Notes under the pieces: model-generated
Database searches by the model: none
Seen by the model: the letters and a program-made list of their open reading frames with translations, nothing else
Told to the model about the DNA's origin: nothing
In this document: piece after piece, positions 23,773 to 37,595 of the stretch
How the letters are laid out: each line of letters begins with the position of its first letter
Numbering within the stretch: the stretch's first letter is position 1
Assembly: GCF_000799075.1 (NCBI RefSeq)
Contig: NZ_JTLI01000067.1
Coordinates: forward strand, 1 to 39,001
Direction of reading: 5' to 3'
DNA length: 39,001 bases
Source: Cetobacterium sp. ZOR0034
Lineage (GTDB): Bacteria > Fusobacteriota > Fusobacteriia > Fusobacteriales > Fusobacteriaceae
Translations under genes and position numbers: made by a program

Positions 23773-23949
23773 AAATTTTTGGATAGCACAACACTGATTT
23801 CTCAGTGACAGTAGTATAGATATTCTCTATACTCCCAACAAAGACTTTTGACATAATCTCCATTTCGGCAAATTTCCCTTTCTTTTAACATCAACACCTG
23901 TCCGGCTCATTTAAAATACTCATGTTATTTGCAACCTCTACCTAAAATA
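23773..23949 (-). promoter_or_regulatory. lysine riboswitch (L box)
   Basis: On the minus strand the conserved LYS-element blocks appear in order: AGAGGTTGC, GAGCCGGACAGG, AAGGGAAATTTGCCGAAATGG, GGGAGTATA, ACTGTCACTGAG with its complement-rich hairpin, and GCTATCC closing P1 against GGTAG. The 329-base gap between the transporter and gpmI is filled by this element, its promoter and its terminator. By family knowledge lysine binding favours the terminator, so the transporter is made when lysine is low. Confidence 0.95.
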
Positions 23950-36898: not shown

Positions 36899-36927
36899 TT
36901 GACTTTTTTTATTTTTTAATATATTAT
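36899..36927 (+). promoter_or_regulatory. promoter of the c-di-GMP riboswitch transcript
   Basis: TTGACT (36899-36904), a 17-base spacer and TATTAT (36922-36927), starting transcription just before the aptamer. Between this and the recG start (36761-36898) I see only recG promoter elements. Confidence 0.7.
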
Positions 36928-36940
36928 ACTTGTATAAATT

Positions 36941-37008
36941 AAATAGGCAAAGTAAGGGAAACCTTATGACGCAAAGCTATAGGGTCTTTAAAATGACAGC
37001 CAGTTGCA
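36941..37008 (+). promoter_or_regulatory. cyclic di-GMP-I (GEMM) riboswitch
   Basis: Conserved blocks occur in order: GGCAAAG, a TAAGG/CCTTA stem capped by the GNRA tetraloop GAAA (36953-36966), TGACGCAAAGC, AGGGTC, then ATGACAGCCAGTTGC. This matches the GEMM-I aptamer, including the tetraloop that docks on the neighbouring helix. The 3' conserved segment AGCCAGTTGCA is also the 5' arm of the following terminator, so ligand binding and termination exclude each other. That predicts an ON switch for c-di-GMP (inference). Confidence 0.9.
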
Positions 37009-37050
37009 CTTATCTGAAAAGATAATGTTGCAATTGGCTTTTTTATTTTT
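36998..37050 (+). terminator. riboswitch expression-platform terminator
   Basis: AGCCAGTTGCA (36998-37008) pairs with TGCAATTGGCT (37029-37039), with an inner TTATC/GATAA stem and a T-rich tail. Its 5' arm is shared with the aptamer. Confidence 0.85.
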
Positions 37051-37086
37051 TATCACTTTATATAACTAATCGGGAGGGAACACACA

Positions 37087-37551
37087 ATGAAAAAAATATT
37101 AACTTTATTATCTTTAACTTTATCTATGACGGCTTTTGCTAATTCTGTTGTTCAATCAGACACTATGAATATCAATGCGAAAATTGTTAAACCACTAACT
37201 GTTAGCCATGACGGGCATATCCAATTTGGTAATCTTGTTCAAAACAGCGGACATAGCGAAAAAGTAAGTAGAAACTTCTTCATTAACGGAACACCTGGAC
37301 AAAAAATTGAATTTAAGATTAATGATCAAAAATTAGACTCATTTTCAAACAGTCATTTAACTAGAGTTGGAGGAAGTGAAACATTAGATTTTTATACTAG
37401 CAATAGAAAAGTAACTAACGGAGATATCTCAAATCCTACTTTAGATAACAATGGAAACTTAACGTTCTCTTTTGATTCTGTAGTTAATGTTACAAACTTA
37501 CCTGTTGGAGAATACACTGGTTCTTTAAAGGTTGCAGTTAAATATAATTAA
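37087..37551 (+). CDS. small secreted DUF4402-like surface protein under c-di-GMP control
   Basis: A 154-residue protein with a signal peptide (1-18, ending TAFA) and a single all-beta domain. The segments MNINAKIVKPLTVSHDGHI then IQFGNLV, RNFFINGTPGQKIEFKI, and the end LPVGEYTGSLKVAVKYN follow the pattern of DUF4402 and fimbrial-subunit-like domains. No cysteine, lipobox or sorting motif is visible. GGGAGGG precedes the ATG. No usher, chaperone or export gene is adjacent. A c-di-GMP-I riboswitch upstream suggests a role in attachment or biofilm. The family call is by pattern, not search. Confidence 0.7.
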   Translation: MKKILTLLSLTLSMTAFANSVVQSDTMNINAKIVKPLTVSHDGHIQFGNLVQNSGHSEKVSRNFFINGTPGQKIEFKINDQKLDSFSNSHLTRVGGSETLDFYTSNRKVTNGDISNPTLDNNGNLTFSFDSVVNVTNLPVGEYTGSLKVAVKYN

Positions 37552-37560
37552 TATAAAGAA

Positions 37561-37595
37561 AAACTGAGGAATTGATGTCCTCAGTTTTTTTTATT
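37561..37595. terminator. bidirectional terminator between the surface protein gene and yebC
   Basis: Stem AAACTGAGGA/TCCTCAGTTT with a 7-base loop and T-runs in both directions. Confidence 0.85.

Follow-up and report, generated by a model that had tools for sequence, protein, structure and literature searches.

In Geobacter metallireducens, the pilus gene pilM is controlled by a GEMM-I transcriptional ON switch in which the aptamer and the terminator are mutually exclusive folds (PMC9262584). That switch senses cGAMP and its target is of the type IV pilus type. A c-di-GMP-I aptamer described as lacking P1 is found in the Cd1 switch of Clostridioides difficile, an OFF switch that lies before flagellar genes and works with an antiterminator (PMC9262584, PMC6366702). 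ON control of surface adhesion by c-di-GMP through read-through is known from the C. difficile pilA1 switch, which is of class c-di-GMP-II and serves type IV pili, and from Bacillus thuringiensis Bc2, a class I ON switch whose target, cap, is a Gram-positive collagen-adhesion protein (PMC6366702).

We analyzed a stretch of 39,001 nucleotides (the window) in which a leader of the GEMM-I type precedes the gene for a small secreted protein. The host is a Cetobacterium and thus a member of the Fusobacteriota, as the original prediction, made from the bare sequence, had proposed. The leader resembles that of pilM in its mutually exclusive aptamer and terminator, but the G at the G20 position points to c-di-GMP as the ligand and the target is DUF4402-like and chaperone-usher-pilin-like. 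P1, described as absent from Cd1, may be missing here too, but where Cd1 has an antiterminator, this leader has its aptamer in competition with the terminator. At the protein level the likeness is to chaperone-usher pili, namely Csu of the archaic and CFA/I of the alternative type: the low-confidence structural model of the window protein matches CsuA/B, CfaE and CfaB, and a chaperone profile matches CsuC. Unlike in those systems, sequence identity is very low, no Pfam usher is matched, the putative pilin gene is unlinked from the assembly genes and control would be exerted by RNA.

The reading we favor, with a rough probability of 0.68, is that the window gene stands behind an ON riboswitch and encodes an unlinked pilin subunit. 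The pilus regulon to which it would belong is of a divergent, chaperone-usher-like kind, induced by c-di-GMP and subject to feedback by phosphodiesterases. The nascent leader would fold the c-di-GMP-I aptamer. If c-di-GMP is bound before approximately nucleotide 100, the 3′ strand of P3 and C92 would be locked, the terminator blocked and the gene read; without ligand, the terminator would capture the 3′ strand of P3 and transcription would stop. Chaperone/usher-like operons would be opened in parallel with the pilin gene. The protein would most likely be a surface-fiber subunit. Its export would fall to divergent chaperones of the PapD-like kind and to usher-like outer-membrane proteins, both encoded in unlinked, switch-led operons, and co-induced HD-GYP and EAL proteins, if active, would lower c-di-GMP again as negative feedback. 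We found no description of this regulon in the literature searched, most subscription journals being outside the scope of that search. The value of the finding lies in the proposed regulon and in the pilin hypothesis. It would provide a testable signal-to-pilus circuit, in a fish-gut genus of a phylum where c-di-GMP control has hardly been described, and a function hypothesis both for the DUF4402-like family, as the pilin of a c-di-GMP-induced fiber, and for a divergent usher-like family. The features of the locus are as follows:

36899–36927, + strand: sigma-70-like promoter, TTGACT-17-TATTAT; the same form lies before other DUF4402 leaders of the genus
36936–37011, + strand: c-di-GMP-I (GEMM-I) aptamer, Rfam RF01051, 61.1 bits, E = 1e-9
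36952–36967, + strand: P2 hairpin with GAAA tetraloop, from the Rfam match and folding, with compensatory changes among orthologues
36998–37044, + strand: intrinsic terminator, 5′ arm 36998–37008, 3′ arm 37029–37039, U tract 37039–37044
37072–37078, + strand: ribosome-binding site GGGAGGG, from the sequence
37087–37551, + strand: gene for a secreted protein of 154 aa, DUF4402-like and probably pilin-like, with residues 1–18 as signal peptide
37556–37592, + strand: terminator-like hairpin after the gene, common to the convergent gene

The predicted c-di-GMP-I element was confirmed by cmscan, where the RF01051 match covers the full model (1–87) and scores well above the gathering score of 35 bits. 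The riboswitch is a further example of an already known class. Strong promoters of the form TTGAC-17-TATnAT recur before Cetobacterium DUF4402 leaders, and promoter scores of at least 9/12 were obtained for 71% of all 58 copies in the genus versus 11% of shuffles.

The window protein is secreted, judging from a signal peptide that ends in AFA, and its HMM score for DUF4402 (PF14352), 19.0 bits, lies below the cut-off of 25.2. We therefore keep the wording "DUF4402-like", which was apt from the start, and do not assign the protein to the family. Among its aligned homologues, 21/22 match DUF4402 at E = 0.01 or better, and a paralogue in the same genome, on C29, scores above the cut-off (28.8 bits). 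An AlphaFold2 model (five sequences) is all beta with a mean pLDDT of 57.6. In Foldseek, this low-confidence model matches the PapG pilin domain and Caf1 best; the best VIA matches are CsuA/B (Z 7.5, rmsd 3.1 over 107 residues), CfaE, CfaB and CsuE, all with Z < 8, and a glycoside-hydrolase family 123 domain is matched as well. These matches favor a pilin fold but fall short of proving it. Subunits of chaperone-usher pili have an incomplete Ig fold with a donor strand at the N-terminus, and the motif TMNINAKIVKPLTV near the N-terminus of the window protein is donor-strand-like. When solved structures were searched with the pilin profile, no significant match was obtained.

The hairpin at 37556–37592 closes the transcription unit after one gene, and the convergent neighbor is, as we read its sequence, a YebC-type protein. 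We take the neighbors of the locus to be proS, recG and yebC from their sequences; the same genes flank it in a Cetobacterium relative. The orthologous place in several other Cetobacterium genomes holds two or three tandem pilin-like genes rather than one. The earlier description of a single target without an adjacent export system is thus correct locally, but not for the genome, which has seven switches and unlinked chaperone/usher-like operons behind the same kind of switch.

An isolated gene with its own terminator would also suit a different product behind the same ON switch, namely a secreted beta protein, free or attached to the surface, that neither polymerizes nor uses the chaperone/usher-like systems, and the unmatched pilin profile and the low confidence of the model are in keeping with this. 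We nevertheless consider such a protein unlikely, because members of the same family lie inside chaperone/usher-like operons (C9 in the host, and the relatives G020 and G031), variable copies stand in tandem at the orthologous place and pilins are the best fold matches. The protein may have the role of "biofilm factor" first suggested for it.

The targets of the seven c-di-GMP-I copies in the host genome are:

C67 (window) and C29: DUF4402-like proteins behind the switch
C9: HD-GYP protein with SBP_bac_3 sensor domain, solute-binding-like protein, 278-aa DUF4402-like protein, 869-aa usher-like protein, MORN protein, PapD-type chaperone
C49:55326: chaperone, pilin-like protein, second chaperone, 884-aa usher-like protein, three more secreted proteins, ORF of at least 4983 aa
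C49:59011: HTH_11 regulator
C16: MarR-type regulator
C113: EAL protein with a weak GGDEF match

Genus-wide, the targets are likewise DUF4402-like proteins, PapD-like chaperone/usher-like operons, HD-GYP and EAL proteins, and regulators. The chaperone of the C9 operon matches PapD_N with 27.1 bits (cut-off 23), and 10/17 relatives match this model as well; against solved structures the chaperone profile had one match only, CsuC (E = 0.013). No match to the usher model PF00577 was found in the host genome. A family of 850–884 aa stands in the usher's place in the operons but has no match to any usher model, its resemblance to SdrD_B or CarboxypepD_reg being confined to the C-terminal domains, and we therefore call the system only chaperone-usher-like. 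A giant adhesin is probably encoded by the long ORF (4983 aa or more) at the distal end of the C49 operon that a riboswitch leads (L130, 1–14950). Two further chaperone/usher-like clusters of the host, on C49 (L172, 2172–6995) and C18 (L173, 5478–14639), have no c-di-GMP-I copy; in the former, a thioredoxin-like gene adjoins the usher-like gene.

We then compared the positions of DUF4402 genes and riboswitches after a profile search of 12 Cetobacterium genomes, which yielded 34 genes at E = 1.3e-10 or better. Thirty of these follow a copy, either immediately, as tandem genes, or 3.6–4.5 kb downstream in the HD-GYP operon, whose gene order was checked for C9. The remaining four have no complete upstream sequence: L145 has one half of an aptamer next to a stretch of N, and L159, L160 and L168 are at contig ends. 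All well-matching DUF4402 genes of the genus with assembled upstream sequence therefore sit behind such a switch. Among weaker matches, from E = 7e-10 upward, there are genes away from switches, for example C49:64655 in the host and G006:C1:1390023, so the association is limited to the close family and does not extend to every DUF4402-like gene.

The host genome has 15 GGDEF matches, 12 of which keep the G/S-G-D/E-E-F motif, and 6 EAL matches. Our receptor search was for PilZ, and no PilZ domain was found in the genome, which together with the number of GGDEF matches points to riboswitches as major receptors of c-di-GMP in this organism. In G009, two neighboring copies (L069; 1012958 and 1015100 on C1) lie before a GGDEF protein with a sensor domain and before an EAL protein, respectively, so that in this pair the predicted functions of c-di-GMP synthesis and breakdown are both behind a switch.

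The overlap of aptamer and terminator was confirmed as first proposed. AGCCAGUUGCA at 36998–37008 pairs with UGCAAUUGGCU at 37029–37039 and a U tract follows. The same 11 bases that form the 5′ arm of the terminator are, in the aptamer, two bulged P3 bases, the 3′ strand at the base of P3 and the 91–92 bases. The terminator hairpin (51 nt) has a ΔG of −21.9 kcal/mol (z −5.5), and none of 200 dinucleotide shuffles folds as well. Enforcing the aptamer costs 1.1 kcal/mol at transcript lengths of 76–94 nt, 1.6 at 97 nt, 3.7 at 100 nt, 8.4 at 103 nt and ~ 16 kcal/mol at 106 nt or more. Given this steep rise from about 100 nt, the decision must fall in a short interval during transcription. Since the two folds claim one set of bases and are mutually exclusive, a transcriptional ON switch is the best reading of the leader, and bound ligand should block termination; the precedent of pilM, where mutually exclusive folds also make an ON switch (PMC9262584), supports the direction originally predicted. 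C. difficile has seven functional switches of class I, all of them OFF (PMC6366702), and an antiterminator that we did not recognize could in principle let c-di-GMP promote termination here too. We consider this highly unlikely, since aptamer and terminator have bases in common here and in 53/58 copies of the genus, whereas in the OFF switch Cd1 the two can coexist (PMC9262584).

How far the terminator reaches into the aptamer varies with the target. Across 11 Cetobacterium genomes we counted the 58 c-di-GMP-I copies mentioned above, and in those 53 a terminator arm pairs with the 91–92 bases. The terminator takes 8 or more aptamer-side bases in 15/16 leaders with a DUF4402-like first gene, 5–6 before HD-GYP genes, 2–6 before chaperone operons and 0–5 (mostly 2–3) before MarR genes. 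Because the leaders form orthologous groups with few independent cases, this relation of depth to target is only a lead. It allows a tentative extension of the favored reading, to which we would give less than even odds: ON switches would coordinate unlinked pilins, export operons, a giant adhesin and phosphodiesterases in an RNA-led pilus lifestyle, and terminator depth (8–10 nt for pilins, 5–6 for HD-GYP and mostly 2–3 for MarR regulators) would set the order in which targets respond. Several ON switches in one genome, presumably for one signal and graded in how far the terminator overlaps the aptamer, lend themselves to a test of overlap depth against response threshold. Four orthologous copies before a small secreted protein (G002:C2:1713, G006:C2:46580, G007:C75:7445 and G008:C125:20700) have no clear overlapping terminator and may act on translation instead.

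The ligand-site bases are all present in the window copy. These are G36946 and C37007, which we take, from an alignment to Vc2, to be the equivalents of G20 and C92, the GCAAA after P2 and the GAAA (GNRA) tetraloop. In the Vc2 structure the ligand is contacted by C92. The ligand is very probably c-di-GMP, as far as these bases can tell. An A at the G20 position is linked to cGAMP preference in Geobacter. Of 98 copies in the family, seven have A (G031:C11:243524, G035:C2:410241, G035:C3:7971, G005:C4:213232, G034:C20:32245, G009:C3:123236 and G008:C10:222) and four have C (C49:55326 in the host, G004:C191, G036:C35 and G002:C2:13825) at this position, which distinguishes c-di-GMP from cGAMP aptamers; together with the Geobacter precedent, some family members may therefore sense another ligand. 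That the window aptamer itself binds another cyclic dinucleotide such as cGAMP is an idea to which we attach very little weight, because this copy and 52/58 copies of the genus have G, and the genome is rich in GGDEF.

The P1 closing helix is needed in Vc2 and is not part of the Rfam model. We found no support for it in the window, where pairing of the flanking strands does not exceed that of mismatched partners; the transcript probably starts approximately 11 nt before G20. The aptamer pairs are 100% standard in nine aligned orthologous leaders, with 10 cells changed on both sides, a result reached by 0/500 shuffles, and the core aptamer bases are invariant. A decayed, non-functional element, as some natural class I copies elsewhere are (PMC6366702) and as the unsupported P1 might suggest, is the least probable explanation of all in view of these invariant bases and compensatory helix changes, the intact promoter and terminator, and the description of Cd1 as likewise without P1 (PMC9262584). 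The lower terminator stem is 99% paired in the same alignment and mostly invariant; its covariation is weak because the aptamer holds the 5′ arm constant. The base shared at column 71 is C instead of U in G005, and its partners in the aptamer and in the terminator have both changed to match. Strict three-way covariation of aptamer, switch base and terminator at this position was rejected, as some copies have A opposite C.

P3 is compact in the window copy (36984–36997), with an 8-nt loop, UUUAAAAU, in place of the usual distal P3 stem. This form occurs in 53/58 Cetobacterium copies with a strongly conserved loop sequence, and compact and long forms are both found in other genera of the family. 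At least one c-di-GMP-I copy is present in 37/98 Fusobacteriota genomes, all of which belong to the same family as the window; family f4, with 35 genomes, has none. No c-di-GMP-II switch was found in the host genome. Class II gave sub-threshold matches only, in three relatives, and since two of these have ten copies each, they are probably a repeated sequence, for example an rRNA operon. The window also contains a lysine riboswitch at 23776–23948 on the − strand (110.9 bits).
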